This document shows, piece after piece, positions 3,636 through 28,188 of a stretch of 35,124 nucleotides of DNA. The translations under genes were made by a program, and so were the position numbers. This DNA is from Pseudomonadota bacterium (GTDB lineage Bacteria > Pseudomonadota > Gammaproteobacteria > Burkholderiales > Burkholderiaceae_D): assembly GCA_030272785.1 (NCBI GenBank), contig JARXKM010000017.1, forward strand, positions 1-35,124, written 5' to 3'. A model generated the notes under the pieces. That model worked only from the letters and a program-made list of their open reading frames with translations. It was not told the DNA's origin and did not search any database. The first letter of the stretch is position 1. The number at the start of each line of letters is the position of its first letter.

Positions 3636-3652
3636 GCCGTAGCTTGGCTGAC

Positions 3653-3679
3653 CCGGCCGGGCGCGATCCGCCCGGCCGG
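3653..3679 (+). terminator. Strong GC hairpin after the TonB receptor gene; possible terminator
   Basis: Perfect 11-bp stem ccggccgggcg-cgatc-cgcccggccgg followed by ccttta. The U-tract is weak. Confidence 0.5.
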
Positions 3680-3710
3680 CCTTTACCGCACGCTAGCTCA
3701 AGGATTCCCA

Positions 3711-5102
3711 ATGCCCCTCCCTGTCCCACGCACTACCCTGCTGGCGCTGCTGCTGGCCACCGGCGCCGCCAGCGCCGCCCAGCCGAACGCCGCCAGCGCC
3801 GCCGAGCCGAACGTCGCCGCCCGCCAGCCCCAGATCGACGCCATCGTGCGCGCCATTTCGCCGCAACGTATCCAGGCCAATATCGACAAGCTGGTCAGCT
3901 TCGGCACCCGCCACACCATGTCCGACACCGTCTCCGAAACGCACGGCATCGGCGCGGCGCGGCGCTGGATCAAGGCCGAACTAGAACGCTGCGGCGCGGC
4001 CGCCGGCGGCCGCCTGCAGGTCGCCTTCGACAGCCACCTGCACCCGGTCGACCGGCGCCTAGCGCGGCCCACCGAGATCGTCAACGTCGTCGCCACCCTG
4101 CCCGGCAGCCAGGCCGCGTCGCGCGAGCGCATCTACGTCGTCAGCGGCCACTACGACTCGCGCAACAGCGACGACGCCGACGCCGTCAACGACGCTCCGG
4201 GCGCCAACGACGACGCCTCGGGCAGCGCGGCGGTAATCGAAATGGCCTGCGTGATGGCGCGCTACCAGTTCGACGCCACCCTGGTGTTCATGACCGTCGC
4301 CGCCGAGGAACAGGGGCTGTACGGCTCGACCGACTACGCCGAGAAGGCGAAGCAGCAAAAACGCAACATCGCCGGCATGTTCACCAACGACATCATCGGC
4401 AGCTCCTACAACGAGGACGGCCAGCGCGACAACGGCCAGGTGCGCCTGTTCGCCGAGGGCATCCCGGCGCTCAAGGACATGCCGGACAATTTGCGCACCT
4501 TGATCCAGACCGGCGGCGAAAACGATACGCTGCCGCGCCAGCTGGCGCGCCACGTCAAGGAAATCGGCGAGCGCTATGTCGACGGCTTCAAGGTGACGGT
4601 GGTGACGCGGCGCGACCGCTACCTGCGCGGCGGTGACCACGCCCCCTTCCTCGACCGCGGTTTCGCCGCGCTGCGCTTCACCGAGCCGGCCGAAAACTTC
4701 AACCACCAGCACCAGAACGTGCGCAAGGAAGGCGCGCTGCAATATGGCGACCTGCCCGAGTTCGTCGACCCGGCCTACATCGCGCAGGTGGCGCGCGTCA
4801 ACGCCGCCGCGCTGGCGTCGCTGGCCTTGGCGCCGGCCGCGCCGCAGGAAGTCAAGATCCGCACCGCCAGGCTGGATAACCACACCGACCTGACCTGGCA
4901 GGCCAACGCCGAACCGGACCTGGCCGGCTACCGCGTCGTCTGGCGCGACACCACCGCCGCGCAGTGGCAGGGCAGCCGGTTCGTCGGCAAGGTGACCGCG
5001 GTGACGATGCCGCAGTCGAAGGACAATCTGTTCTTCGGCGTGCAGGCGGTCGACCGGGACGGCAACGCCAGCGTGGCGACCTACCCGCTGCCGCAACGCT
5101 GA
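3711..5102 (+). CDS. M28 family metallopeptidase with a C-terminal fibronectin-III-like domain
   Basis: Signal peptide; YVVSGHYDSRNSDDADAVNDAPGANDDASGSAAVIEMA and AAEEQGLYGSTDYAEKA motifs; C-terminal NHTDLTWQANAEPDLAGYRVVWRD...GVQAVDRDGNAS. Confidence 0.9.
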   Translation: MPLPVPRTTLLALLLATGAASAAQPNAASAAEPNVAARQPQIDAIVRAISPQRIQANIDKLVSFGTRHTMSDTVSETHGIGAARRWIKAELERCGAAAGGRLQVAFDSHLHPVDRRLARPTEIVNVVATLPGSQAASRERIYVVSGHYDSRNSDDADAVNDAPGANDDASGSAAVIEMACVMARYQFDATLVFMTVAAEEQGLYGSTDYAEKAKQQKRNIAGMFTNDIIGSSYNEDGQRDNGQVRLFAEGIPALKDMPDNLRTLIQTGGENDTLPRQLARHVKEIGERYVDGFKVTVVTRRDRYLRGGDHAPFLDRGFAALRFTEPAENFNHQHQNVRKEGALQYGDLPEFVDPAYIAQVARVNAAALASLALAPAAPQEVKIRTARLDNHTDLTWQANAEPDLAGYRVVWRDTTAAQWQGSRFVGKVTAVTMPQSKDNLFFGVQAVDRDGNASVATYPLPQR

Positions 5103-12579: not shown

Positions 12580-14376
12580 CTACGCGCGCCCGCCTGATCG
12601 GCGACGACGCACCAGGCTGAGCACCGCCACTGCGCCGAGCAGCAATGCCCAGCTGCCCGGCTCCGGCACTGCGCTCTGGTGGTGCATCGATGTCATTGCT
12701 GTCTGCGCGCTCATGCCGCCGACATAGAACGAGTCGCTGCCGGCGAGGCCGACGAAGGTGAAGCTTTTCGACGTGAACGTCATGCTCGGGTCGAACAGGT
12801 TACTGAGCGCGTACTTGGCGGACGAGCCGTCGTCGAGGATCAGTTGCCACAGCGAGTTGGCGGAAAACGTCGTGCCGTGCGCATCGTTGTAGAAATTGAG
12901 GTTGCCGATCTGGGTCGTCTGCGCGAACGAAAACGTGACGCGCTCGTTGGCCTCGATGTTGTCGCCGCCACCCATGGTCGGGCCGAACACGCCGATGCCG
13001 CCGTTTTTCGGCGCCATGTCCTGGATCACCACGCCGGCGACCAGGTGACCGTTCTGCTGCAGCGCGAGCTTCTGTTGTTCCAGCGCGGCCAGGTCAGCCT
13101 TCTTGGCGTCGAGCGCGCCGATCGCCGCCGCCAGCTTGGTGTCGATGACGCCATCGGCGGCGAGCTCGCTCGCCTTGGTGGCGGTCGCACTGGCGCTCTT
13201 GCTGGCGAGCGCGGCGATGTCGGTGGTCTTCGCCAGCACCAGGCTGTTCGCGCTGGTTTGCTGGGCGACGAGCAGCTTGTTGGCGTTGGTGGTGCTAACG
13301 ACCAGGGCGGCGGCAGTCGCCTTCTGGCCGTTGAGCACGACGACCGCATCGTTGCTGTTCTTGATGACCGCGGCGGCGGCCACTTTCTGCTGGTCGATAG
13401 CGGCGATCGCCTGATTCGTGACCGCGGCCGTGTTCACATAGGTGGCGCGCTGGCCGGCCAGCTTGACGAGATCGGCGTTCTTCGCCGCGATGGCCGCCGC
13501 CGCCGTGGCCGTGGACGTGTCGAGCGTCTTGATGCTGGCGTTCTTGCTGGCGACGGTGGCCTGGTCGGTTTTCAGCAGCGCCAGTTCGGTCGACGTCGGA
13601 TGCGCTTTGGCCAGCAGCGACGCGATCTCGACGTTCTTCGCATCGATGACGCTTTGCGCCGCCGCTTTCAGGGTGGCGTTCGCGGCGATCGTGGCGTTCT
13701 TCGCGGCGATATCCTTGCTGTCGGCCAGCGCGGCCGCATCGGTCGTGGCGATCTGCTTGGTGACGGTGGCGACCAGCGTGACATCCTTGGCGCGCGTGAC
13801 GTTCAGCGCCGCCACCTCGGCCGTCTTGCTGGTGACCAGGGCGAGCGCGGTGGTGCGCGCAGCGTCGATATTCTTGATGTCCGCGTTGGCGCCGGCGATG
13901 ACCTGGTTGCCGGCGTCGATGCCGACCTTGAGCGTGGCCAGGGTGGCGGTGGCCGTCGCGATCGCCGCCTGGTCGGCTGCCTTGCTCGCAGCGTAGCCGT
14001 CGATCAGGGTGGCCGTGGCGGCGATGCTCGCCAGGCTGGTCGTCTTGGTCTTTTGCAGGGCCGCTAACGCCGTTTCGCTGCTGGCGATGGTCTTGACGGT
14101 GGCCGCGCGGGTCGTCTCGAGCGTCTTGAGATCGGCCGCGGCGACATCGACCGCGCCGTTCACGTTCAACGTGCCGTTCGACTTGGTCGCAAAGGTGAGC
14201 GTGGTGCCGCACAGGTCAGCGTCGGCGCAACGATCGGCGGCGCCGCCCAGGCTGCCGGCGAGCGCGCCATTTTGCGCAAAGCGCAGCGTTTCGGTCGTCG
14301 TCAACGGCGCGGCCATGGCGCTGTGGACGGTGGACAGTGCCACCACGGTGGCGATCGAGAGGAAGCGCATGGCCAT
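12580..14376 (-). CDS. PEP-CTERM sorting domain protein with long Ala-rich helical/coiled-coil central region
   Basis: Signal peptide MAMRFLSIATVVALSTVHSAMA; C-terminus SAVPEPGSWALLLGAVAVLSLVRRRRSGGRA is a canonical PEP-CTERM tripartite signal; about 370 residues of low-complexity A/T/K/D/L repeats. Start follows AGGGAAATT. Confidence 0.88.
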   Translation of the reverse strand: MAMRFLSIATVVALSTVHSAMAAPLTTTETLRFAQNGALAGSLGGAADRCADADLCGTTLTFATKSNGTLNVNGAVDVAAADLKTLETTRAATVKTIASSETALAALQKTKTTSLASIAATATLIDGYAASKAADQAAIATATATLATLKVGIDAGNQVIAGANADIKNIDAARTTALALVTSKTAEVAALNVTRAKDVTLVATVTKQIATTDAAALADSKDIAAKNATIAANATLKAAAQSVIDAKNVEIASLLAKAHPTSTELALLKTDQATVASKNASIKTLDTSTATAAAAIAAKNADLVKLAGQRATYVNTAAVTNQAIAAIDQQKVAAAAVIKNSNDAVVVLNGQKATAAALVVSTTNANKLLVAQQTSANSLVLAKTTDIAALASKSASATATKASELAADGVIDTKLAAAIGALDAKKADLAALEQQKLALQQNGHLVAGVVIQDMAPKNGGIGVFGPTMGGGDNIEANERVTFSFAQTTQIGNLNFYNDAHGTTFSANSLWQLILDDGSSAKYALSNLFDPSMTFTSKSFTFVGLAGSDSFYVGGMSAQTAMTSMHHQSAVPEPGSWALLLGAVAVLSLVRRRRSGGRA

Positions 14377-14619: not shown

Positions 14620-15864
14620 ATGCGTAATTCGACTTCCGGTGGCCGTGCGTTCACCACATTTTCCCTGCTTGCCGCATGCCTGTTGAGCGCCGCCGCGGCC
14701 GCCGCCCCGAAGAACGAGGGCTTGTACCAACGCGCGGTCGAAGCGAAACCTGAACTGATCACCCTGCTGGGCCGCCTGGTCAGCATCGACTCGGGCACCG
14801 GCAGCGAAAAAGGCCTCGACGCGGTGGGCGCCATCGTCACCGACGAGCTCAAGAAACTCGGCATGCGGGTCGAGTTGTCGTCGGCGGCGCCGGCGGCCGG
14901 CCACAACCTGGTCGCCACGCTCGACGGCAAAGGCAAGGCGAAGATCTTGCTGATGGCCCACATGGATACCGTGTTTGCCGACGGCACCGCGGCGGCGCGC
15001 CCGTTCCGCATCCAGGGCGACCGCGCCTACGGTCCCGGCGTGATGGACGACAAGGGCGGTATCGTCACCGCCATCTACGCGCTCAAGCTGCTGCAGCAGA
15101 TGAAGTTCACCGACTTCGCCCGCATTACCTTGATGGTCAACACGAACGAGGAAACGTTTTCCAAGGGCACGCGGAGCTTGATCGACACGCTGTCCAAGCA
15201 GCATGACGTGGTCCTCAGCATGGAACCGGGCCGCGCCGCCGACGGCCTGGTGGTGTGGCGCAAGGGCGCCGGCGACCTGCTGATCGAGGTCAAGGGCAAA
15301 TCGGCGCACGCCGGCGTGGCGCCGGAGTCGGGCCGCAACGCGGCCATGGAAGCGGCCCACCAGATGCTGCAAATGGCGGCGCTGGGCGACAGCGCCAAGC
15401 TGACCACTGTTAACTTCACCGTGTTCAATTCGGGCGATCGCCTCAACACCATCCCCAACGCGGCGACCGTGCGCGGCGACATCCGCGTGCGTGAGATGGC
15501 CGAATTCGATCGGGTCGAAAAGGACATGGCGCGCCTGGCCGACAAAAAACTGATCGCCGACACCGAGGTGAAAACCAGCGTCACGCGCGGCATGCCGCCG
15601 ATGCCGGTCAACCCCGGCACCGAAGCGCTGGCGCGGCGCGCGCAGGCCATCTACGGCGAGCTCGGACTGACGCTGACGATGGAAGGCTCCGGCGGCGCCG
15701 GCGACGCCAACTACTCCAGCGCGGCCGGCACGGCATCGCTCGATGGTTTCGGTATCGTCGGCGGCAATATCCACACGGAGAATGAATACGCTGAGCTCAA
15801 CAGCATCGCGCCGCGGCTGTATCTGCTGACCCGCATGCTGGTGGATGTGAGCACGAACAAGTAG
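14620..15864 (+). CDS. M20 family metallopeptidase (glutamate carboxypeptidase-like), secreted
   Basis: Signal peptide; LLMAHMDTVFADG, GPGVMDDKGGIV, NEETFSKGT, GKSAHAGVAPESGRNA motifs; GAGGTG just upstream of the ATG. Confidence 0.9.
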   Translation: MRNSTSGGRAFTTFSLLAACLLSAAAAAAPKNEGLYQRAVEAKPELITLLGRLVSIDSGTGSEKGLDAVGAIVTDELKKLGMRVELSSAAPAAGHNLVATLDGKGKAKILLMAHMDTVFADGTAAARPFRIQGDRAYGPGVMDDKGGIVTAIYALKLLQQMKFTDFARITLMVNTNEETFSKGTRSLIDTLSKQHDVVLSMEPGRAADGLVVWRKGAGDLLIEVKGKSAHAGVAPESGRNAAMEAAHQMLQMAALGDSAKLTTVNFTVFNSGDRLNTIPNAATVRGDIRVREMAEFDRVEKDMARLADKKLIADTEVKTSVTRGMPPMPVNPGTEALARRAQAIYGELGLTLTMEGSGGAGDANYSSAAGTASLDGFGIVGGNIHTENEYAELNSIAPRLYLLTRMLVDVSTNK

Positions 15865-16051
15865 GCGGCGTGCCTCGTTCTGCATGAGTACAACCATTTC
15901 ATGCGTTGCGGGCGCTGCCAGCCAAGGCCACCCGGCAGTACAGTGCGTATCGGCACAAGGGCGCCGCCCCGGCCTGACGATGCCTGGCTGGTGCGTACCA
16001 GTGAAGAATCAGCGCGAGACATGGCGCGCAGGCATAGGGTGCGATAGGCTG

Positions 16052-17212
16052 TTAGCGAATCTGCTCGCGATCCAAGGTAAACCGGGCCACGCGATCTTCC
16101 AGCACGGTGACGCCGATGCCGGCACCGATGGGCATGGCGATGAAGCCATCGTCGGCCAAAACCACCGACGGCTCGACGATGTCTTCGCTGAAGTAGCTGG
16201 CAGTTTCCGCTGTGTCGCCCGGCAAGGTGAAGCCCGGCGCAGCCTGCAACTGGAGATTGAAGGCGCGGCCAATGCCGGTTTCGTCCATGCCGCCTGACCA
16301 GACGTCAACGCCGGCATGCTGACACAGCGCGGCGATGCGCAGCGATTCGATCATGCCGCCCACCCGTCCCTGCTTGATGTTGATCACGCGCGCGGCTTGC
16401 AGGGCCAGCGCCGCGCGGGCATCGTCGAGGTCGTGAATCGATTCATCCAGGCACAGTGGCGTGGCCAGTTCGCGTTGCAGCGCGGCATGTTGAACAATGT
16501 CGCTGTACGACAGCGGCTGTTCGATCATGGTCAGGTTGAAGGCATCGAGTTCGCGCAACACCGCTGCGTGCTCGAGCCGGTAGTCGCCATTGGCGTCGGC
16601 CATCAGCGCCAGCTGTGGATAGGCTTCGCGCACGGCGCGGACCCATTCGACATCCTTGCCTTGCATGATCTTGAGCTTGACCCGGTGATAAGGGCGGTTC
16701 ATCGCCTCTGCCACGGCATCGAGCAGCGCCGCAATGGAGTCCTGAATCCCCAGGCTGACGCCCGACTGGATGCGGCGTGCCGACAGTCCCAGCAACTCGT
16801 GCAGGGGACGACCTTGCTGGCGCGCTATCAGGTCCAGCAGGGCATTTTCGACCATGGCCTTGGCCATGCCATGGCCGCGCACCGGGCTCCAGCGCTTGAG
16901 CAGTTCGCCGATCGTCTGTCCTGGCGTGACCAAAGGGAGCAGGAATGCCTTGAACACATGGCGCACGGTGTGCGTGGTTTCGCTGGCATAAAAGGGATCG
17001 GGGTCGGCCACGCATTCACCCCAGCCAACCACACCGTCCGATTCGAGCCGCAACAAGAGCGCCTCCTTGACGGCCCAGGTGTGAACGCTGGTGGCGAACG
17101 GCCTCACATACGGCAAGCGAACCGTGATCAGATCGATCCGTTGCAGCACGGGCACTTGCGCCTGCGCCGCCGGGGAAACTGGCACTGGGCAGTGGAGGAA
17201 TTGATGGTCCAT
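16052..17212 (-). CDS. Enolase-superfamily enzyme of the MLE subgroup, N-succinylamino-acid racemase / o-succinylbenzoate synthase-like
   Basis: VGWGECVADPDPFYASETT; catalytic KxK (VKLKI); metal ligands in LMADANGDY, MIEQPL, LCLDESI; NIKQGRVGGM; VWSGGMDETGIGRAFNLQLQAAPGFTLPGDTAETASYFSEDI. Confidence 0.87.
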   Translation of the reverse strand: MDHQFLHCPVPVSPAAQAQVPVLQRIDLITVRLPYVRPFATSVHTWAVKEALLLRLESDGVVGWGECVADPDPFYASETTHTVRHVFKAFLLPLVTPGQTIGELLKRWSPVRGHGMAKAMVENALLDLIARQQGRPLHELLGLSARRIQSGVSLGIQDSIAALLDAVAEAMNRPYHRVKLKIMQGKDVEWVRAVREAYPQLALMADANGDYRLEHAAVLRELDAFNLTMIEQPLSYSDIVQHAALQRELATPLCLDESIHDLDDARAALALQAARVINIKQGRVGGMIESLRIAALCQHAGVDVWSGGMDETGIGRAFNLQLQAAPGFTLPGDTAETASYFSEDIVEPSVVLADDGFIAMPIGAGIGVTVLEDRVARFTLDREQIR

Positions 17213-17236
17213 TGAATCGAAGAAGAGGTGAGGAAC

Positions 17237-18655
17237 TCAGGCGTAACCGGTGAGTACGGCAAACGCCACCATGGCCATGGACATGAGCAGGATCAGTAGC
17301 TGAAAGCGCCAGATAATGCCAAGCCAGCGTGTCCATGGCACGCCGGCAACACCGAGCGTTGCCATCAGAATGGCGCCGGTCGGTACGCTCATGTTGGCCA
17401 TGGCGTTGCCCAACTGGTATGCCAGGACGGCGGTTTGCCGCGTCACGCCGACCAGGTCGGACAGGCCTGACATCAAGGGCATGTTGATCGCTGCCTGGGC
17501 CGAGCCGGAATGAATGACAAAGGTGAACGCGGTTTGCACGGCGAGCATGCCTTGCGCCGCCAGCAGCGGCGGCCAGGTTTCCAGCATCGTGCCCATGCTG
17601 TGCAGGAAGGTATTGAGCACCGAGGGCGCGTGCGGATTGGCGCCGCCCAACAGGTATTCGATGCCCTTTGCCAAAGAAATCACCAACACCGCCGGCACCA
17701 ATTGCTGCGCTCCGGCGACGAATGCTGCGGCCGCGGCGTCGGCGCTGAGCCGTTTGGCGATGACCGCGACGATCGCGGCGAAGAAGCACAGCGTGACGAA
17801 CTGGGTGGCGATTTCCGGGATGAAGTAGCCGGCCGTGACCACGCCCCAGACGATCCAGATGATGGTGCCGACGATGCCGGCAAGAATGAGTCGGTCGGCC
17901 AGCGCGAGTGGCGGCGTATCGACGGGAATGACGATCTGGCCGTTCGCACCCAACTCGACCTCGCCGCGATGGCGCTCGGCATACCAGAGGGTAAAGGCGG
18001 TGCCGGTACTGACAAAAATGAAGAACATGACGATGCGCAGAGGTGCGCCCGACAGCAGCGGCACGTTGGCGATGCCTTGCGCCAATGCCACGCCAAACGG
18101 ATTCATCCACGAGGTACCGAAGCCGATCTGGCTGGCCACATAGGTGATCATCACTCCCACTTCAGGCGGGTAGCCCATACGCCGGATCAGCGGCAACAGC
18201 AGCGCCAGGAAAGCGATGGTTTCCTCCCCCATGCCGAATACGGCGCCGCCGGTGGCGAAGGCCGTGAACAAGGACCCCAGCAACAGGCGCGGGTGGTGGC
18301 CGGTGATGGCGATCAGGCGCAACAGACCACGGTCGACCGCACCGGTGGCATTGATGACGCCGAATGCGCCGCCGACCAGCAGGATGAAGGCGATGACGCC
18401 AACGGCAGCACCGCTTCGGCCGCCCGACGTCATGCCCTCGAAGGGCGCGTTGAGGAAGCCGACTTCCTTGCCGCTGCCGAACACGGAAATGCTGATGTTG
18501 TGCTCGGCTACCCGGTAGGAGTCGAGCGAAATCGGCACGCCTTTCTCGAAGTAGCCGGCCGCTACCCAAGGCACAAGCAGGGCAACAAACAGTGCGCCGA
18601 AGAGCAGGATGATCAGGGTGTTGGGAACTTTGAATGTACTTGGCTTGTCGCTCAT
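17237..18655 (-). CDS. YfcC-family (ArcD/DcuC-like superfamily) permease
   Basis: Multi-TM protein; FKVPNTLIILLFGALFVALLVPW, GGAFGVINATGAVDRGL, FGMGEETIAF, SQIGFGTSWMNPFGVALAQGIA. Located 24 bp upstream of the enolase-superfamily gene. Confidence 0.85.
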   Translation of the reverse strand: MSDKPSTFKVPNTLIILLFGALFVALLVPWVAAGYFEKGVPISLDSYRVAEHNISISVFGSGKEVGFLNAPFEGMTSGGRSGAAVGVIAFILLVGGAFGVINATGAVDRGLLRLIAITGHHPRLLLGSLFTAFATGGAVFGMGEETIAFLALLLPLIRRMGYPPEVGVMITYVASQIGFGTSWMNPFGVALAQGIANVPLLSGAPLRIVMFFIFVSTGTAFTLWYAERHRGEVELGANGQIVIPVDTPPLALADRLILAGIVGTIIWIVWGVVTAGYFIPEIATQFVTLCFFAAIVAVIAKRLSADAAAAAFVAGAQQLVPAVLVISLAKGIEYLLGGANPHAPSVLNTFLHSMGTMLETWPPLLAAQGMLAVQTAFTFVIHSGSAQAAINMPLMSGLSDLVGVTRQTAVLAYQLGNAMANMSVPTGAILMATLGVAGVPWTRWLGIIWRFQLLILLMSMAMVAFAVLTGYA

Positions 18656-18701
18656 GCTCGTAAAGCTCCTGCTAATATTTCAGACAGTCTACCCTCGGAT
18701 G

Positions 18702-18724
18702 AAAAAGCCCCACCGAAGTGGGGC
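18702..18724 (-). terminator. Rho-independent terminator of the downstream TonB receptor gene
   Basis: On the minus strand: GCCCCAC-TTCG-GTGGGGC-TTTTT, a perfect 7-bp stem with UUCG loop and U-tract. Confidence 0.88.
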
Positions 18725-18748
18725 GTCGAGGGGTGGTCGGGGATCGAT

Positions 18749-21505
18749 CTACTTGAACTTGTACTGCATGTTGACAAACAGTGAGCGGCCACGCGGGTCG
18801 CCGTAGGTGGGATCCCATGTCACTTCAAAATAACGCGATTGATTGGTGAATGGCGGCGGCGTATCGAACATGTTGATGACGCCGGCGCGAAGCTTCAGCT
18901 GCTTCGTGAACGCATAGCTTCCGCTCAAGTCCCACAGCGAATAGGCCTTGACGTCACGGTCATTCCAGCCGGGATCAGCCAGGCCCGGGATGTTCTGATC
19001 GCGATAGCCCGACATGAAGGTATTGCCCAGGGTCAGATTGAGCGGGCCATGAGTCCAATCAATGTTGAGCTTGTGGCGCCAGCGCTGCACGGCCTTGTCG
19101 TCACGGAATACGCCGAGGCCATTCGTCAACGGCGAGCTCGGGTCGGACTGGAACTCGTACTTGGTGATATAGGTCGCTCCGATATTTGCGCTGAACCGGC
19201 CGAATGCCGTGGCATCGCCACGCCAGTTGAGGGCCAGGTCGAAGCCGGAGGTATTGAGCTTGCCGCGGTTCTCTTTCTTGAACTGCAAATAGGAAACGGC
19301 ACCGTCCGAGTCGCGCACGACGATCTTCGGGTCGTTGTAGTACACCGGATTATCGAACACGGTTTGTTCGCCGATCTCCGAAATGATGTCCGTCTTGCGG
19401 ATCATCCAGTAGTCAACACTGCCATTCCAGTTCTGGTTCGGTTCAAGGACCAGGCCGAGCGAGAATTGCTTGGACTTCTCCGGTTTGAGCAAGGGGTTGG
19501 CATAACGATCGAGGTCGAACTGGGCAATTTCACCCGAGACCGGATCCTTGACGAAGCTGGCGATGGTGCCTGAACGTACCGGCAGGAACATTTCTGAAAT
19601 CGAGGGCGCGCGGAAGCCAGTGCCGAACGATGCCCGGCCCAGCATCGCCTTGCTCGGACGGTAGCTCAGCGCGATCTTCGGATTGGTGGTGTCGAGGGCC
19701 GGCGTGGTGATGGCCGAGCGCGGGTCCTTGACGCCTTTGTAGTGGTCATGGCGAATGGCGAACTGGCCTTCCCATTCCTTGCTGAAGGGCGCGTTCAGTT
19801 CGGCGAAAATGCCGGCGATGTCGCGCTGGTTCGACGAGTCTTCCAGCAGGTCGTCGGAACTGGAACGGTCGCCTTGCACGTCGTTCGTCTTCAGTGCCGC
19901 CGTTGACGAGAACGCGGTCTTCTCACGGCGCAGTTCGGCACCGAGCGCCAGCATCGCATCGCCGCCCGGCAAGGACATCACGGCGCGCGTCAGCTTGCCA
20001 TCGATGCTGTCGCTGGTCCCTTTGGAGATCCGGGCGGCGCCGGCGATCTTGATCGAATCCATGAACTTCTTGCCCGAGTCGTCGGTCGGGGCGACAAACG
20101 GGTTGTAGAGTCCCTTGGCGATGCCAGCGAGTAGTTTACTACGCGAAACCCAACCGTCGATATCGAGGTCGGTGGCCTTGTTTTCGCTGTGGTTATACGC
20201 CGTGTCGTAATCCCATAGTCCAAAGCGACCATTGGCCCCCAGCAAGAAGCGCGATCCTTCACTGGTGACCTCGGTGGTGCGGCGCCCTGCATCGGTCAGG
20301 CGGAAGCGGAAATTGACGGGGGTCGTGATGCCGGTCTTCGCTTGCAGGCTCGCCGGCAGCGTAATGCCGGCGGTGGTGCCGTTGATGCTGCCCGATGTTG
20401 CGGGCGAGGCGGCATAGGCGGTCTCGGCCTTGCTCAGCAAGACTTCGGCGAACACCTGGTGATCATCCGCGACCTGGAAGGTGGCGCGCCCGATAAAGCT
20501 TTGCTTGTCGGATTTTGGGTAGACTTCCGAGTCGCCCATGTAATTGAACGAACAGCCTTCCGTCCCGCCAGGGCCGAGCGGGCGGACGACGTTGGCGCTG
20601 CCATTGACGCAGGAGGACTTGCCTAGACTGACGCGCCGGCCCGGCGAGGGCACCCACGTACCGCCGGGTCCGGAGCCGAAGAGATAGGTGGATTTATTCA
20701 GCGTGGCAAGTTGCGCGGCAGTCAGATCGACGTTGGCCGGAAAAGTGGTGCTCGACAACTGCGGCGACAGGCGATCAGGCAGGCTGTACTCCTGCATGAA
20801 CTTGCGATCCGAACTGGAAAGCCGCCCCGTCCTCTGGATGTCGAACGCACCGAACACGTTATAGCGGTCGGTGACCAGGTCGCCGAAGCCGCCCGACAAG
20901 GACGCGCTGGTTTTACCACCGCCGCCTTCGCCCGTCTTGAGCGCATACACGCTGGCGTCGCCGCCCTGATAGTCCTTGCGGGTGATGAAGTTGATCACGC
21001 CGCCCATCGCATCGGTGCCGTAGATCGCCGATGCACCATCTTTGAGTATCTCGACGCGCTGAATGGCGCCGGCGGGAATATTGTTGAGGTCGACACCGGA
21101 ACTGTCGCCCGGGCTGGCGAAGTTGGCCAGCCGCCGGCCGTTGAGCAGCACCAGCGTGCTTGATACACCCAGGCCGCGCAGGTTGGCGCCATTGAAGCCA
21201 CGCTGCCCGCCCATGACGTCGCTGACGCTGGCGCCGTCGGTGAGACCGCCGACATTCGACGAGATCTTCTGCAGCAGCTCGGCGGCGGTCGTCACCCCGG
21301 CCTTGTCGATATCTTCGCGTTTGATGGTTTCCACCGCCAACGCCGTCTCACCTTCAATGTGCTTGATGCTCGAGCCGGTGATTTCCACGCGCTGCATGGA
21401 TTGCGCGGCAACGTTCATGCTCGAGGCACTGAGCGCGAGTAGGACTGCATGGGTGCATCGGGAGCGACGGAATGCGAACGCGGCGGGCTTGCTAGCTGGT
21501 TTCAT
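18749..21505 (-). CDS. TonB-dependent receptor
   Basis: MKPASK... start; plug VEITGSSIKHIEGETALAVETIKREDIDKAG...LRGLGVSSTLVLLNGRRLANF...VEILKDGASAIYGTDAMGGVINFITRKDY; C-terminal barrel ending NMQYKFK. Confidence 0.94.
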   Translation of the reverse strand: MKPASKPAAFAFRRSRCTHAVLLALSASSMNVAAQSMQRVEITGSSIKHIEGETALAVETIKREDIDKAGVTTAAELLQKISSNVGGLTDGASVSDVMGGQRGFNGANLRGLGVSSTLVLLNGRRLANFASPGDSSGVDLNNIPAGAIQRVEILKDGASAIYGTDAMGGVINFITRKDYQGGDASVYALKTGEGGGGKTSASLSGGFGDLVTDRYNVFGAFDIQRTGRLSSSDRKFMQEYSLPDRLSPQLSSTTFPANVDLTAAQLATLNKSTYLFGSGPGGTWVPSPGRRVSLGKSSCVNGSANVVRPLGPGGTEGCSFNYMGDSEVYPKSDKQSFIGRATFQVADDHQVFAEVLLSKAETAYAASPATSGSINGTTAGITLPASLQAKTGITTPVNFRFRLTDAGRRTTEVTSEGSRFLLGANGRFGLWDYDTAYNHSENKATDLDIDGWVSRSKLLAGIAKGLYNPFVAPTDDSGKKFMDSIKIAGAARISKGTSDSIDGKLTRAVMSLPGGDAMLALGAELRREKTAFSSTAALKTNDVQGDRSSSDDLLEDSSNQRDIAGIFAELNAPFSKEWEGQFAIRHDHYKGVKDPRSAITTPALDTTNPKIALSYRPSKAMLGRASFGTGFRAPSISEMFLPVRSGTIASFVKDPVSGEIAQFDLDRYANPLLKPEKSKQFSLGLVLEPNQNWNGSVDYWMIRKTDIISEIGEQTVFDNPVYYNDPKIVVRDSDGAVSYLQFKKENRGKLNTSGFDLALNWRGDATAFGRFSANIGATYITKYEFQSDPSSPLTNGLGVFRDDKAVQRWRHKLNIDWTHGPLNLTLGNTFMSGYRDQNIPGLADPGWNDRDVKAYSLWDLSGSYAFTKQLKLRAGVINMFDTPPPFTNQSRYFEVTWDPTYGDPRGRSLFVNMQYKFK

Positions 21506-21629
21506 GCGATGAGTCCTCGGAAATGGGTGAGTCAGACGCAAGCACCGTGCATGCAGTGCCCCGGCGCAATTTTGGAACGCCTCGAGTGTATGCAGTGTTC
21601 GCTTCCTTGGGCCCCCTATTGCCAGCTTG

Positions 21630-21666
21630 GGTCGCACCGTGAGAAGCCGGTGTCGCATTCTTGCAA
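21630..21666 (+). promoter_or_regulatory. Putative ArgR (AraC-type) operator facing the cyanophycinase operon
   Basis: GGTCGC-ACCGTGAG-AA, 5 bp, TGTCGC-ATTCTTGC-AA: tandem half-sites with 21-bp pitch. Confidence 0.6.
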
Positions 21667-21693
21667 AGTTGTTCAGCTTATGGTGTTGCAAAC

Positions 21694-21730
21694 TTCTGAC
21701 AGTGCGACATGCATTTGCCAATGTGCGCAA
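21694..21730 (-). promoter_or_regulatory. Putative ArgR operator facing the TonB receptor gene (mirror of the previous site)
   Basis: Minus strand: TTGCGC-ACATTGGC-AA, 5 bp, TGTCGC-ACTGTCAG-AA, again 21-bp pitch. Confidence 0.55.
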
Positions 21731-21811
21731 ACATCGTCGGGACGGTGCCAGCAGGCACCCGATCGGTGGCAACATCCGCTCAAGTTTGTATCGTGGCGAA
21801 AGGCCCTTCCC

Positions 21812-23080
21812 GTGAAATCCGTGTTCATCCTGCTGCTGTCCGCAGCGAATTTGGCGATCGGTAGTGCGTACGCCGAGGAAATCCACGCAAGACCGGCGTT
21901 CCAGCCGATACCCGGCATCGTCGTTCCCATGGGCGGCGCAGTGCGTGACGATAACGATGCGTTGCGCCAGCGCCTGGTCGATCTTGCCGGTGGCAAGGGC
22001 GCGCGGTTTGTGGTGATCCCGACCGCATCAGGCAATCCTGCAGCGACCGGCGAGAGTGCCGCGCATGAACTCAGGCGCCGTGGTGCGCAGGTGGAGCTTC
22101 TGCGCATCGCGCCGACCTGGCCGGGAGAAAATATCGAATCGGCGCGCCGGGCTGCTGCCGATCCCGCCAACGTCGCCAAGATTCGCGCTGCGACCGGGGT
22201 GTACTTCACCGGCGGTGCGCAAGAACGGTATGCCGACGTGCTCAATCCGGGCGGCGTGGCCTCGCCAGTGCTGCAGGCGGTGCGCGAGTTGCAGGCGCGC
22301 GGTGGGGTGATCGCCGGCACCAGTGCCGGTGCGGCGATCATGAGCCGCGTCATGTTTCGCGATGCGCCAAATTCTCTTCTGGTACTCAAGGGATTGCTGC
22401 GCGAAGGCAAGGAGATTGAGCGCGGCCTGGGATTTGTCGGCGATGACCTTTTCATTGATCAACATTTTCTGAAGCGCGGGCGGATCGGCCGCATGCTCGC
22501 CGCGATGCTGGCCAAGGGCTACAAGATCGGCGTGGGCGTCGACGAGAATACGGCTGCGGTGATTCGCGGTACGGATATCGAGATCGTGGGCGCCACCGGC
22601 GCGCTGCTGATCGACCTGCATGATGCAACGGTTGAGCCGGGCCCGGTCAATGTGCGCAACGCGCGCATTTCCTACCTGGATAATGGCGACCATTATGATT
22701 TGGCCAAGGCGCAGGCGCGTGTCTTTCCTGCCAAACGTGCCAGAGGGGAGCTCAAGTTCGGCCAGCCCGGTTTTGTCCCTGACTTTGAAAATCCGCGCGG
22801 CGCGTTTACCGACATCCTCGGCGAAAACGCCGTCCAGCGGGCCTTGTCGCAACTGGTCGATGGCCCCGATGATCACGTCACCGGCTTCGCCTTCGACCTG
22901 CTTGCGGCAGCCGACGATCCGACCCCCGACCTGGGATTCGAGTTCGTGCTGCGGCGCGATGACCGCACGCGCGCCTGGGAAAGCGTCGGCATTGACGGCA
23001 AGGACTACTCCGTATTCGATGCCCGGCTTGATGTACGGCCGATCCGCATGACTACCCCGCTCTACAAGGCATGGCGATGA
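21812..23080 (+). CDS. cphE: Secreted cyanophycinase-family (S51 peptidase) protein
   Basis: GTG start in frame; signal peptide VKSVFILLLSAANLAIGSAYA; VVPMGGAVRDDNDALRQRLVDLAGGKGARFVVIPTASG, catalytic-Ser motif VIAGTSAGAAIMS, GLGFVGDDLFIDQHFLKRGRIGRM. Confidence 0.85.
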   Translation: MKSVFILLLSAANLAIGSAYAEEIHARPAFQPIPGIVVPMGGAVRDDNDALRQRLVDLAGGKGARFVVIPTASGNPAATGESAAHELRRRGAQVELLRIAPTWPGENIESARRAAADPANVAKIRAATGVYFTGGAQERYADVLNPGGVASPVLQAVRELQARGGVIAGTSAGAAIMSRVMFRDAPNSLLVLKGLLREGKEIERGLGFVGDDLFIDQHFLKRGRIGRMLAAMLAKGYKIGVGVDENTAAVIRGTDIEIVGATGALLIDLHDATVEPGPVNVRNARISYLDNGDHYDLAKAQARVFPAKRARGELKFGQPGFVPDFENPRGAFTDILGENAVQRALSQLVDGPDDHVTGFAFDLLAAADDPTPDLGFEFVLRRDDRTRAWESVGIDGKDYSVFDARLDVRPIRMTTPLYKAWR

Positions 23081-24381
23081 GGATCCGGCTCCTTCTGCTC
23101 GCCGCCGTCACGGGCTCGCAGGCCGCTGGCGTGCTGGCACGGCCGACGGTTGACCATGCACTGCTCGATGCCGCGGCGGCCAGGGTGCTGCCCGCCGTGG
23201 TGAACTGGCGCCGCGACCTGCATGCGCATCCCGAGCTGGCCTTCGACGAACAGCGCACCTCCGACATCGTTGCCACCGAACTGCGCCGCATGGGCTACGA
23301 GGTCACCCGCGGCGTCGCCGAAACCGGCGTCATCGGACTGCTCGATACCGGTCGCCCGGGCCCGGTCGTCGCCTTGCGTGCCGACATGGACGCACTGCCG
23401 GTGGCGGAACAGACCGGCCTGCCATACGCGTCCAGGCAGCGCGTCAGGCAAGGATCGACGCAAGTGGCCTTGATGCACGCCTGCGGCCATGACATGCATG
23501 TCGCCATGCTGCTTGGTGCTGCCCGGGTGCTCGCCGACCTGCGCGGGCAACTTTCCGGCACGGTCAAGCTGGTGTTCCAGCCCGCCGAGGAAGGCGTACC
23601 GAATCAAGCCAATGGCGCCGAACGCATGGTCAAAGCCGGCGTGCTGGAGAACCCCAAGGTCGATGCGATGTTCGGGCTACACGTGGGCATCACGCCGCAA
23701 CCGACCGGCACGCTCTCGCTGCGCGCACGTGGGTTCATGGCGGGAAGCGACACCTTCAATATCGTCGTCAAGGGCCGCCAGACCCATGGCGCCTTGCCGT
23801 GGAACGGCGTCGACCCGGTCGTTGTCGCGGCGCAGATCGTGCTGGGGCTGCAGGTCATCGTCAGCAGGCAAACCAACCTGACCCTGGCGCCGGCCGTGAT
23901 CACCGTGGGCACCCTGCACGGCGGACAACGGGCGAACATCATCCCGGCCGAAGTCACCATGAGCGGCACCATTCGCAGCTTCGACCCGGCCACGCGCGAC
24001 CAGCTTCTGGCGCAGGTCAGGCGTACCGCCGAGAACCTTGCGCTGGCCTCGGGTGCCACGGCCGAGGTGAGTTTTGACGCCGGCTACGCGGTGACCTGGA
24101 ACGATCCGGTACTGACAGCGAAGATGCTGCCGAGTCTGCACCGGGTGGCCGGCGCGGCCGTGCTTGCCGACGTCCCGCCGACCACGACGTCGGAGGATTT
24201 TTCCTATTACGGACAGCGCGTCCCCGCCATGTTGTTTTTTCTCGGTGTCAATCCGCCGGGGATTGCCGCCGCGGACTGGGCACCGAACCATTCACCTCGC
24301 TTCAATCCGGACGAAGGCGCCTTGCTGACTGGGGTGCGCTCGCTCGCCAGCCTGGCCGCCGATTTCTTGACTGGGAACTGA
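23071..24381 (+). CDS. M20D family amidohydrolase/aminoacylase with signal peptide
   Basis: RDLHAHPELAFDE, VALRADMDALPV, MHACGHDMH, FQPAEEG motifs; N-terminal MRIRLLLLAAVTGSQAAGVLA. Overlaps the upstream stop (start at 23071, or 23077 with ATGA overlap). Confidence 0.9.
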   Translation: MAMRIRLLLLAAVTGSQAAGVLARPTVDHALLDAAAARVLPAVVNWRRDLHAHPELAFDEQRTSDIVATELRRMGYEVTRGVAETGVIGLLDTGRPGPVVALRADMDALPVAEQTGLPYASRQRVRQGSTQVALMHACGHDMHVAMLLGAARVLADLRGQLSGTVKLVFQPAEEGVPNQANGAERMVKAGVLENPKVDAMFGLHVGITPQPTGTLSLRARGFMAGSDTFNIVVKGRQTHGALPWNGVDPVVVAAQIVLGLQVIVSRQTNLTLAPAVITVGTLHGGQRANIIPAEVTMSGTIRSFDPATRDQLLAQVRRTAENLALASGATAEVSFDAGYAVTWNDPVLTAKMLPSLHRVAGAAVLADVPPTTTSEDFSYYGQRVPAMLFFLGVNPPGIAAADWAPNHSPRFNPDEGALLTGVRSLASLAADFLTGN

Positions 24382-24389
24382 AAGTCTTC

Positions 24390-25508
24390 ATGGAACTGAT
24401 CTCGATTCCGCTCCCTTCCCCTGCCGCAGGCACGAGCCGGGCCTTGTCGGTTCTTCGCTTTGGGAAGGAGGGGGCCGGCCCCAAGGCCTATATTCAGGCA
24501 TCACTGCACGCCGACGAACTGCCCGGCATGCTGGTCGCGCACCATCTGAGAAATCAGCTTACCGCGCTGGAGCAGCAGGATAGGCTGCTCGGGGAGGTGG
24601 TATTGGTACCGGCGGCCAATCCGATCGGACTTGCGCAAACCTTGTTGGGGTCCAGCCAGGGGCGCTTCGATCTGCGCACCGGACAAAATTTCAATCGCAC
24701 CTTTCACAACCTGTCAGGCGATGTACTGAGCCGGGTGAAGGCGCAGCTGGGGCCGGATGCGGGCGCGAACCAGGCGCTGATCCGCGCGGCGATCCGCGCC
24801 AGCCTGATGGACCAGGACGCCACCGACGAACTGTCGGTACAGCGACTGGCACTGATGCGACTGGCCGCGGATGCCGATGTCGTGCTCGACCTGCATTGCG
24901 ACTGCGAGTCGGTGTTGCACATCTATACCGGCACGCCCCTGTGGGAGCGCGTTGCACCACTGGCGGGATTGCTCGATGCGCGGGTTGCCCTGTTGGAGAC
25001 CAATTCCGGCGATGACCCGTTCGATGAGGCCTGTTCACGGATCTGGTGGGATCTGGCCGCGCTGGTTGGCGAGGAGTTCCCGATACCCCTGGCCTGTCTT
25101 GCCGCGACGGTTGAATTGCGCGGCTTTGCCGACGTCAATCATGCCGATGCCGAGCGTGACGCTACCGCTTTGCTCGACTTCTTGCGCTTGCAGGGCATCA
25201 TTGCCGGTCCGTTGTCGCGAGCCGTGCCACCTGCCTGCGAACCGACCCCGCTGGCAGGCTGCATGCCGCTGACCGCACCGACGGCCGGACTGGTGGTGTA
25301 CTTGCGAGCACTGGGCGATAGCGTCAAGGCAGGCGACCCGCTGATCGATCTGATTGATCCCGTGAGCGGTAACGTGCAACAATTGTTGGCGCCGGTGGAC
25401 GGGATTTATTTCGCCCGCGAAAATCGTCGCTATGTGTCGCCCGGGACGCGGTTGAGCAAGGTCGCGGGGCGTCAAGCCGTTCGCAGCGGCCCGCTGCTTT
25501 CGGCCTGA
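24390..25508 (+). CDS. cphZ: Succinylglutamate desuccinylase/aspartoacylase-family protein; candidate cyanophycin dipeptide hydrolase (CphZ/AotO-like)
   Basis: YIQASLHADELPGMLVAHHLR (HxxE zinc motif), VLVPAANPIG, DVVLDLHCDCESVLHIYTG; 372 aa. Starts 9 bp after the M20D gene. Confidence 0.7.
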   Translation: MELISIPLPSPAAGTSRALSVLRFGKEGAGPKAYIQASLHADELPGMLVAHHLRNQLTALEQQDRLLGEVVLVPAANPIGLAQTLLGSSQGRFDLRTGQNFNRTFHNLSGDVLSRVKAQLGPDAGANQALIRAAIRASLMDQDATDELSVQRLALMRLAADADVVLDLHCDCESVLHIYTGTPLWERVAPLAGLLDARVALLETNSGDDPFDEACSRIWWDLAALVGEEFPIPLACLAATVELRGFADVNHADAERDATALLDFLRLQGIIAGPLSRAVPPACEPTPLAGCMPLTAPTAGLVVYLRALGDSVKAGDPLIDLIDPVSGNVQQLLAPVDGIYFARENRRYVSPGTRLSKVAGRQAVRSGPLLSA

Positions 25509-25573
25509 AGCAATCCGATTGCGTGTGACGTCGTTGTACCACGTAGAATTCTGGCATCCCAAGAAAATAAACT

Positions 25574-26584
25574 ATGCCAACGCCCTTTTCCGTTTCGTTG
25601 ATATTGTTTCCCGGTTTCTCGCTGTTCGCACTGGGTGCGGTGCGCAGTGTCTTCGCTGTCGCCAATGATGTTGGCGGCGAGATGCTGTATCGGGTCCGCC
25701 AATATGCCCCGGATGGTGCGCAAGCGCTGACGCAATGCGGCCTGTCGCTCGCAGCCGACCCGCTCCACAAGCTCGATCATGAGCAACTCGGTTTGTTGAT
25801 GCTGATCGCTGACGAACGCGTCGATGAGCGGGTTGCCGGCACAGTCGGCAGCCACCTCGGGCAGCAGTTGAACCGCTGCGGCGATGGCGGTGAATGGGTG
25901 CTCGGCGCCAGCGGTGCTGGCGCGCAGGTACTCGCCGAGCATGGGTTTCTCGATGGCTATCGTGCCGCGATTCATTGGCAGATTCTGGCGGATGCGGTGA
26001 AGCGCTATCCAGCGACCGTGTTCACTGCGGGCTTGTTCGAAATCGATCGGAATCGCATCAGCGCCGGTGCCGGTGCCGCGGTACTCGATTTGCTCTTGCA
26101 TTGGCTTGGATTACGCCATGGCAGCACCTTTGCCGCCGAAGTGGCAGCCGGGCTGGGACTGGACCGGCTGCGCGGGAGCGACGAACGGCAGCCGGTGCCG
26201 GCGTCGGCGCAACCGGCGCTCGGATCGGCGCGCCTCAAGGAAGCGCTGGAACTGATGGCAGCCAATCTTGCCGAGCCCTTGCAGGCAGAAGATATTGCCC
26301 AACTGGTCGGCGTGTCGCGCAGGCAACTGGAACGATTGTTCCGGCAGCATATGGATACCTTTCCCTCGCGGTATTACCTGGAGCTGCGCCTCAAACATGC
26401 TCGCCGCCAATTGAAGCAGACGACCCAATCGATCATGCAAGTCGGCCTTGCTTGCGGTTTCGCTTCTGGTCCGCATTTTTCCACCACGTACCGCAATTAT
26501 TTTGGTTACACCCCGCGCGAGGAACGTGCCCGGCACACCATGCCGCAAGTCGCGACGAAAATCTCCGAAGAGGACATTCAATGA
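25574..26584 (+). CDS. GlxA/ArgR-like AraC family transcriptional regulator
   Basis: DJ-1/PfpI-like N-terminal domain (SVSLILFPGFSLFALGAVRSVFAVAND) plus C-terminal AraC HTH (EDIAQLVGVSRRQLERLFRQHM...SIMQVGLACGFASGPHFSTTYRNYFGYTPREERARH). Confidence 0.88.
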   Translation: MPTPFSVSLILFPGFSLFALGAVRSVFAVANDVGGEMLYRVRQYAPDGAQALTQCGLSLAADPLHKLDHEQLGLLMLIADERVDERVAGTVGSHLGQQLNRCGDGGEWVLGASGAGAQVLAEHGFLDGYRAAIHWQILADAVKRYPATVFTAGLFEIDRNRISAGAGAAVLDLLLHWLGLRHGSTFAAEVAAGLGLDRLRGSDERQPVPASAQPALGSARLKEALELMAANLAEPLQAEDIAQLVGVSRRQLERLFRQHMDTFPSRYYLELRLKHARRQLKQTTQSIMQVGLACGFASGPHFSTTYRNYFGYTPREERARHTMPQVATKISEEDIQ

Positions 26585-27612
26585 ATCACATGGACTACCT
26601 GTTGCGCCCGGCGACCCTGGATGATCTCGATGCCATCGAGCGGTTCTCGAAAGCCAGTACGTTTGGCATCCACACGCTGAAACCGGGTCGTGTCCGCCTC
26701 GCGGAGCGGCTCGAACGGTCGCTGAAGGCCTTCGCAGGCACTGAACCGGTCAGCGGCGACGAGATCTACCACTTTGTCCTCGAAGACCTTAGGGCCGGTC
26801 GCGTCGTCGGTACCAGTGGCATCGTCGCCAGCGCCGGGGCAAACGGCCGTTTCTATTGTTATCGCAATGAATTTTCGGTGCATACCAGCGAGGAACTCGG
26901 CATCAGCAATCGGGAACATACACTGCGTCTGTGCGAAGACTTGTCCGGCCACTCACTGCTCAGCTCGTTTTACATCGAGCCGGAGTATGGCGCTACGCTC
27001 GCCCCGCAACTGCTTTCCCGCGGACGGCTGCTTTTCGTGAGGAACTTTCCCCACCTGTTCGCGGAAAGGATAGCTGCTGAAAATCCCGGCTTGTGCGACG
27101 AAACTGGCAATAGCCCCTTATGGAATGCGCTGGGGCATCGATTCCTAAAAATGCCATTTCCTGAGGCTGAGCAACGCACCGGGGGCCGATCCAAGAGTTT
27201 CATCGCTGAGTTGATGCCCCGCTCACCGATTTATGTCTCCTTGCTGGCCGAGGATGCCCAGTGGGCAATGGGGCAGTTGCATCCAGACGGAGAGTTGCCT
27301 TTTAGCATACTGGTTGCGGAAGGGTTTGATGTGGATTCCTACGTCGACATATTCGATGGTGGGCCGATTGCCGAAGCGCGGGTGGCCATGTTGAACACCG
27401 TGGTTTCCGCGCTGGAGGTGGATCTGCGTGGTGCTGCTGACCTGGAAGGAGAACCCTGTCTGTTGTCCAATATGGAACGCTCAGGATTTTGCGCGACGCT
27501 GGCACTTGGTGAGTTCGTCGAGGATGCGCTTCAACTGACGCCCTCGGCGATCAAACGACTGGCGCTGACCGCGGGTTCGCGCGCGTGTGCCGTGCGTGTC
27601 AACGGATCGTAG
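26581..27612 (+). CDS. astA: Arginine N-succinyltransferase
   Basis: LLRPATLDDLDAIERFSKAS, GITTL-like GIHTLKP, YRNEFSVHTSEELGISNREHTLRLCEDLSGHSLLSSFYIEPEY, LFAERIAAENPGLCDETGNSPLWNALGHRFLKMPF. 4-bp overlap (ATGA) with the regulator. Confidence 0.92.
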   Translation: MNHMDYLLRPATLDDLDAIERFSKASTFGIHTLKPGRVRLAERLERSLKAFAGTEPVSGDEIYHFVLEDLRAGRVVGTSGIVASAGANGRFYCYRNEFSVHTSEELGISNREHTLRLCEDLSGHSLLSSFYIEPEYGATLAPQLLSRGRLLFVRNFPHLFAERIAAENPGLCDETGNSPLWNALGHRFLKMPFPEAEQRTGGRSKSFIAELMPRSPIYVSLLAEDAQWAMGQLHPDGELPFSILVAEGFDVDSYVDIFDGGPIAEARVAMLNTVVSALEVDLRGAADLEGEPCLLSNMERSGFCATLALGEFVEDALQLTPSAIKRLALTAGSRACAVRVNGS

Positions 27613-28109
27613 TTGCCCACTAGATTCATTGCGCGTTTGATCATGCCCACAAGACGATGAGCGAATACGGTTCTGTTCCATGGGTCACCGCTTACAAGGA
27701 TGCAAATTCTCTCGTTCCCGGCCTTTTGCTGAAGGGGGAGTTCAATCGATGTATCTCACGAGCTCTCATAAATGGTGTAAAAAAGCTACTATTGAAGAAT
27801 ATCCATATCTATTGGAATGAAACGGCACCCTATCAAAATATTTATGCGCAAACTCTTTTAACTTAATTTCAGGCCGCCGCCGACATGAAGGCGGTTGGTC
27901 ACGCGAACATGAGCAAGGGGTGCGGGGTTGCGCTGGCCCGGGTGACGGCGGTGCGGCCGGTGAAAGTCCAAACTCATGCGAAACCGATGGCCGCCTACCG
28001 GTTGAAAGAAATTACTTACATAGCCGTTGCATGAAGGCGACAGAGCGCAAAATAAATAAAAATGGCTGCAAGCGAAAGCGTGCAACCATTTGATTTTTAA
28101 GGCTAATTC

Positions 28110-28188
<79 letters not shown>

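Follow-up and report, generated by a model that had tools for sequence, protein, structure and literature searches.

A cyanophycin utilisation locus has been described (Ben Hania et al. 2017) in which, according to PMC10206079, a cyanophycinase, IadA or IaaA and a transporter are clustered in a genome without cphA1; this source also cites the work on the Pseudomonas CphZ (Sharon et al. 2023 PNAS). The catalytic and pocket residues of the cyanophycinases CphB and CphE have been listed (PMC3235067), and the CphE enzymes of Pseudomonas alcaligenes and P. anguilliseptica comprise an export leader, ~420 aa, a catalytic Ser-His-Glu and an Arg/Gln/Asp pocket (PMC3235067). In Citromicrobium sp. JLT1363, a TonB-dependent transporter adjoins a cyanophycinase, and cyanophycin was proposed as the substrate (PMC3400609).

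In this work, we analysed a window of 35,124 nucleotides (the whole stretch of DNA under study), where an eight-gene cassette occupies positions 16052–27612. Just as in the Ben Hania locus (PMC10206079), a cyanophycinase, a predicted dipeptide-splitting enzyme and a transporter are clustered in the window, but a CphZ-type enzyme replaces IadA, and a TonB receptor, an ArgR-type regulator with its operator, and AstA are extra. Neither IadA nor IaaA is encoded in the cluster, the CphZ-type enzyme presumably filling the dipeptidase role, and the host encodes CphA1 (on contig C59), unlike the scavenger-type locus as PMC10206079 presents it. The receptor–cyanophycinase neighbourhood is common to the window and Citromicrobium sp. 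JLT1363, a member of another bacterial class, for which the available sections of PMC3400609 do not mention CphZ, ArgR, AstA or the operator.

Scavenging loci, a TonB receptor beside a cyanophycinase, and CphZ-type hydrolases were already known. As far as the literature searched goes, what is new is the way the parts are combined, the exchange of one permease type for another, the doubled ARG box and the cassette's likely transfer; the coverage of the literature was partial, and parts may have been described. The aot operon of Pseudomonas reportedly comprises aotO/CphZ and argR. The window resembles it in the CphZ-type hydrolase beside an AraC-family ArgR, the ARG boxes and the link to arginine catabolism, whereas a YfcC-type permease replaces the ABC transporter, and the window additionally has a putatively exported cyanophycinase and a TonB receptor. 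An intermediate between the two is Roseateles toxinivorans L121, bearing Aot, S51 and receptor genes together.

All eight genes claimed in the first-pass annotation are present, with the order, strands and spacing that it gave. The minus strand carries the genes for an N-succinylamino-acid racemase (NSAR, 16052–17212), a YfcC permease (17237–18655) and a TonB-dependent receptor (18749–21505), and the plus strand those for S51 (21812–23080), M20D (23071–24381), an AstE/AspA-family protein (24390–25508), an AraC-type regulator (25574–26584) and AstA (26581–27612). The S51 and M20D genes overlap by 10 bp, 8 bp separate M20D from the CphZ-type gene and 65 bp the latter from the regulator gene, which shares an ATGA overlap with astA. 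Genes were predicted with a codon-score caller suited to GC-rich DNA, which gives approximate starts; within the cassette, the refined starts are GTG at 21812 for S51, ATG at 21505 for the receptor and 26581 for AstA. Chance ORFs are ruled out because homologues occur in the same order in nine further genomes. Elsewhere in the window, another TonB receptor and an exported hydrolase-like protein (810–5102) adjoin an Lrp-type regulator (80–562), a stretch collinear with one congener. A long alanine-rich coiled-coil-like protein with a C-terminal PEP-CTERM-like anchor (VPEPGSWALLLGAVAVLSLVRRRRSGG) is encoded at 12580–14376, and an exported M20 glutamate-carboxypeptidase-like gene (14620–15864) adjoins the cassette, with which it is not conserved.

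The assignment of the plus-strand S51 protein to the cyanophycinase family was borne out: it scored 143.1 bits with TIGR02069 against a cut-off of 126.6, and every published catalytic and pocket residue is present. The triad (S171, H218, E245 in the window protein) is invariant in 56/56 relatives in the alignment, and so are Q101, S132, D172, Q173, H174, R178, R180, R183 and E201 (CphB numbering), among which Q101, D172, Q173, R178, R180 and R183 line the substrate pocket. The predicted model (pLDDT 84) shows the cyanophycinase fold with a C-terminal extension, and its nearest folds in Foldseek were 7uqv (E 5.6e-21), 3en0 (1.4e-19) and 7uqw, all ahead of PepE. Since the top-ranking structure, 7uqv, bears the title 'pseudo-CphB', neither the fold nor the motifs are proof of the substrate. 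The protein is CphE-like, sharing the size of ~420 aa, the triad, the pocket and a putative export leader with CphE of P. alcaligenes and P. anguilliseptica, and it differs from CphEal in having Gln instead of Thr at the CphB Q173 position (PMC3235067). A Sec-like hydrophobic leader, MKSVFILLLSAANLAIGSAYA, was recognised at its N-terminus by inspection and hydropathy only; M20D has a Sec-like leader as well, and secretion of both proteins is probable as judged from leader sequences. S51 would be expected to release beta-Asp-Arg from cyanophycin outside the inner membrane.

The AstE-like protein falls into the CphZ group, as had been proposed. Its best matches, covering residues 8–363, were 8ein and 8eip (273 and 270 bits), whose entry names read succinylglutamate desuccinylase and which we take to be CphZ structures. 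The Zn-site motifs HADE and DLHCD are kept together with E242, at which 8ein and 8eip differ from each other; H40, E43, H169 and E242 are invariant in alignment A1, and by analogy with the AstE/AspA family we assign putative Zn-site roles to the first three and a putative catalytic role to E242. This probably cytosolic protein may split beta-Asp-Arg into Asp and Arg. AstA, an arginine/ornithine N-succinyltransferase of AruF-like type, matched PF04958 (328 bits) and TIGR03243 (326 bits vs the AOST subfamily cut-off of 284) and scored below both equivalog cut-offs, TIGR03244 and TIGR03245 (AstA, AOST-alpha). It is a third, divergent copy in the genome, two further copies lying on contig C458 within the AST cluster astC-A-A-D-B-E. 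The suggested link to the AST pathway is supported by these genes, but to call the locus 'complete' was an overstatement, AstB, C, D and E being encoded on C458, outside the cassette.

M20D and NSAR are accessory and stand outside the proposed cyanophycin route. The former, a putatively exported amidohydrolase/carboxypeptidase, matched TIGR01891 above its cut-off (343 bits) with the metal-site motifs kept; the latter, an NSAR/OSBS-family member of the enolase superfamily, scored 304 bits with TIGR01928 (cut-off 200), retains the catalytic KxK, D, E, D, K residues, and has N-acylamino-acid racemases as the nearest solved structures. Across the orthologous loci, M20D, YfcC and NSAR either occur together or are missing together. 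Perhaps the two enzymes trim or racemise modified or N-acylated amino acids.

Within the family, two genera have S51 orthologues of 70–88% identity in a further 16 genomes, against a paralogue background of ~38–49%. The divergent receptor/S51 pair is retained in 16/16 orthologous loci and all eight genes in nine; five loci carry the receptor and S51 only, and L056 and L058 lack M20D, YfcC and NSAR, L056 lacking CphZ as well. A phylum-wide search with the receptor and S51 gave matches confined to the family at the cut-offs chosen, and distant loci were reached through a CphZ scan of named genomes. In Roseateles/Paucibacter, the receptor gene is divergent from S51-CphZ-YfcC-ArgR-AstA (~45–50% identity); R. 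toxinivorans L121 has the order S51-aotJQM-CphZ-aotP-ArgR-AstA-AstA-receptor, also at ~45–50%; in Janthinobacterium/Duganella/Rugamonas, S51-receptor adjoins CphZ-YfcC, and a regulator of RpiR type is often present. The MAG loci L069 and L116 continue directly into astC-astA-astA. Two receptor/S51 pairs lie in tandem in L137 (634–9849) and L146 (659–9881), which suggests duplication, possibly for different polymer variants.

These neighbourhoods uphold the claim that the receptor and the permease belong with the cyanophycin enzymes. The receptor (PF00593, PF07715) clusters in the tree with other S51-associated receptors (25 rows, support 92/95); two rows are marked far, one in the S51 gene cluster of L121 and one a lone copy in G018, and the L157 receptor is a lone copy away from S51. 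The permease matched PF03606 (293 bits) and NF008611 (480 bits, slightly below the cut-off of 500), and shares only ~35% identity with its counterparts in the named-genome loci. Among 43 loci with receptor and S51, a YfcC-type permease occurs in 32, Aot genes in five and both in none, consistent with replacement of one transporter by the other. In the window, YfcC is co-operonic with NSAR and not with CphZ. Gene association points to cyanophycin-derived substrates for the receptor and to beta-Asp-Arg for this YfcC/DcuC-family permease.

The Pseudomonas ARG box has been given as TGTCGC-N6-G-N-AA (PMC10963909); the form in PMC4997734 is TGTCGC-N8-AA-N5. In the divergent promoter region we found two inverted boxes, TGTCGC-N8-AA-N27-TT-N8-GCGACA (21651–21709), forming a 59-bp unit with 43 bp from start to start; the unit lies 102 bp upstream of the S51 gene and 145 bp upstream of the receptor gene. 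The regulator matched PF12833 and, below the cut-off, NF052371 (243 bits); in Aot-type loci the ArgR-type gene sits after aotP-like genes, as in aot-argR. The AraC-type match and the conserved boxes agree with the earlier description of this protein as ArgR-like. The 59-bp unit recurs in all 11 other family loci with the regulator as well as in L137, L139 and L146, and was not found in the five family loci lacking it. Overall, the paired boxes occur in 15/19 receptor+S51 loci with an ArgR-type gene vs 0/24 without (Fisher p 2.6e-8, a value that is too small because the compared loci are related), and within genus g40 in 5/5 vs 0/5. Across 1.73 Mb from other loci, no paired boxes were seen outside the three Roseateles-type loci L137, L139 and L146. 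The astC gene of this genome is itself preceded, at ~90 bp, by one ARG box. A single exact box on the minus strand (28027–28042), between the cassette end and tRNA-Met, has no obvious target gene, and in Janthinobacterium-type loci (L082, 8808–9779, and similar) an RpiR-family regulator replaces the ArgR type. We propose that the ArgR-type protein acts at 21651–21709 in response to arginine, and arginine-dependent induction or repression of the cassette would be a prediction of the same kind.

The cassette was probably acquired horizontally, because a block (16042–27634) that is 86.8% identical in DNA to G118, a genome of another genus, over 11,623 columns ends at the cassette ends, beside housekeeping flanks with only 67–72% identity to the same genome. 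The GC3 of the cassette is 0.66–0.81 vs 0.87–0.95 for the flank. Misbinning of the contig was considered and rejected, the rpoD-dnaG flank being 86–87% identical in DNA to congeners. The cassette is absent from all four congeners searched, among which this site is variable, and the tRNA-Met beside it (28110–28188, minus strand) marks the border of collinearity with them. Three genomes from the genus of G118 have the cassette next to the same tRNA-Met and rpoD, which makes this conserved anchor a plausible route of transfer. General inspection of the predicted genes adjoining the cassette revealed no recognisable mobility genes. Inheritance from a common ancestor followed by loss in congeners would fit the identity and base composition less well.

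The genome bin (G000; 82.8% complete, 3.9% contamination) contains on C59 (L061, 6129–11095) tandem synthetases, a full CphA1 (967 bits, over cut-off) and a shorter paralogue, CphA1'; the tandem is present in all 21 genomes searched, and CphA1 is encoded in 20/20 other genomes checked. The host is therefore a potential producer, and the first-pass description of a consumer rather than a storage system is unsupported. The suggested search for cphA, iadA and iaaA outside the window located cphA on C59 and iaaA on C241, while iadA gave no match over cut-off in the bin. A second S51 gene, with a Sec-like leader, is divergent from a second CphZ gene on C65 (L060, 1624–4272), and an S51 without a leader was not found in G000, which has CphA1.

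Taken together, the families of the genes, their active sites, the conserved association, the operator and the signs of transfer read from these sequences make it likely that the cassette serves cyanophycin utilisation under arginine control, with the following predicted activities and transported substrates. The putatively exported S51 would release beta-Asp-Arg from the polymer beyond the inner membrane; the TonB receptor would carry oligomers or dipeptides across the outer membrane, and the YfcC-type permease would move the dipeptide into the cytosol, where CphZ would split it into Asp and Arg. AstA, together with AST enzymes encoded elsewhere, would degrade the released arginine, and the ArgR-type regulator would sense arginine and act at the inverted ARG-box pair in the region from which the two operons diverge. 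A TonB receptor is hardly needed for a 289-Da dipeptide, which counts against this route. So do the five orthologous loci reduced to receptor and S51, the low identity of YfcC to its counterparts and its pairing with NSAR, and the poor fit of M20D and NSAR. In a broader interpretation, which we hold tentatively and at a little under an even chance, the cassette belongs to a PUL-like system for amino-acid polymers, with a cyanophycin TonB family, interchangeable transporters and an intergenus Burkholderiales cassette. Under the same tentative interpretation, arginine control would operate through the fixed-geometry double ARG box, the hosts would also make cyanophycin, and M20D/NSAR would make polymer variants that are modified or of D configuration usable as well.

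Other explanations were weighed against cyanophycin utilisation. It is unlikely that the locus serves general scavenging of arginine- or beta-aspartyl-containing peptides, S51 cutting other beta- or aspartyl-linked peptides with cyanophycin not the main substrate: S51 is indeed a broad family that includes PepE, with a pseudo-CphB as the best solved relative, and what the regulator and its boxes indicate is arginine, not the polymer, but the pocket has every residue that defines cyanophycinases, and the fold search ranked CphB structures above PepE. Succinylation, racemisation and desuccinylation by three enzymes is the scheme of Gram-positive NSAR operons. That AstA, NSAR and M20D convert D-arginine or other D-amino acids in this way, joined to a smaller cyanophycin module, seems quite unlikely, even though all three enzyme classes co-occur, the NSAR active-site motifs are intact and M20D, YfcC and NSAR come and go as a set. 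We retain this conversion as no more than a rival, since M20D is apparently exported, whereas succinylation and racemisation are cytosolic; besides, AstA is tied to ArgR and S51 without NSAR/M20D in L056, L058 and the Roseateles loci.

TonB receptors are numerous, with 61 first-look candidates in this genome, and the one described here might be a siderophore or other receptor lying next to S51 by chance. We regard this as very unlikely in view of the adjacency in all 16 orthologues and many independent loci, the clustering of S51-associated receptors in the tree and the divergent operator common to both genes. There is only a slight chance that the locus mobilises the cell's own stored cyanophycin: the same genome does encode CphA1 and CphA1', but S51 bears a putative export leader, cphA lies on another contig, and congeners with CphA1 lack the cassette.

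Read as a cyanophycin utilisation locus, the cassette provides a concrete, testable genetic unit for the recovery of cyanophycin nitrogen by heterotrophic bacteria in nature. It also leads to a substrate prediction for a family of orphan TonB receptors and to another for permeases of the YfcC type. The ArgR operator could be predicted from sequence and geometry alone. The occurrence of such a cassette in bacteria that possess cyanophycin synthetase blurs the split between producers and scavengers drawn in the literature.
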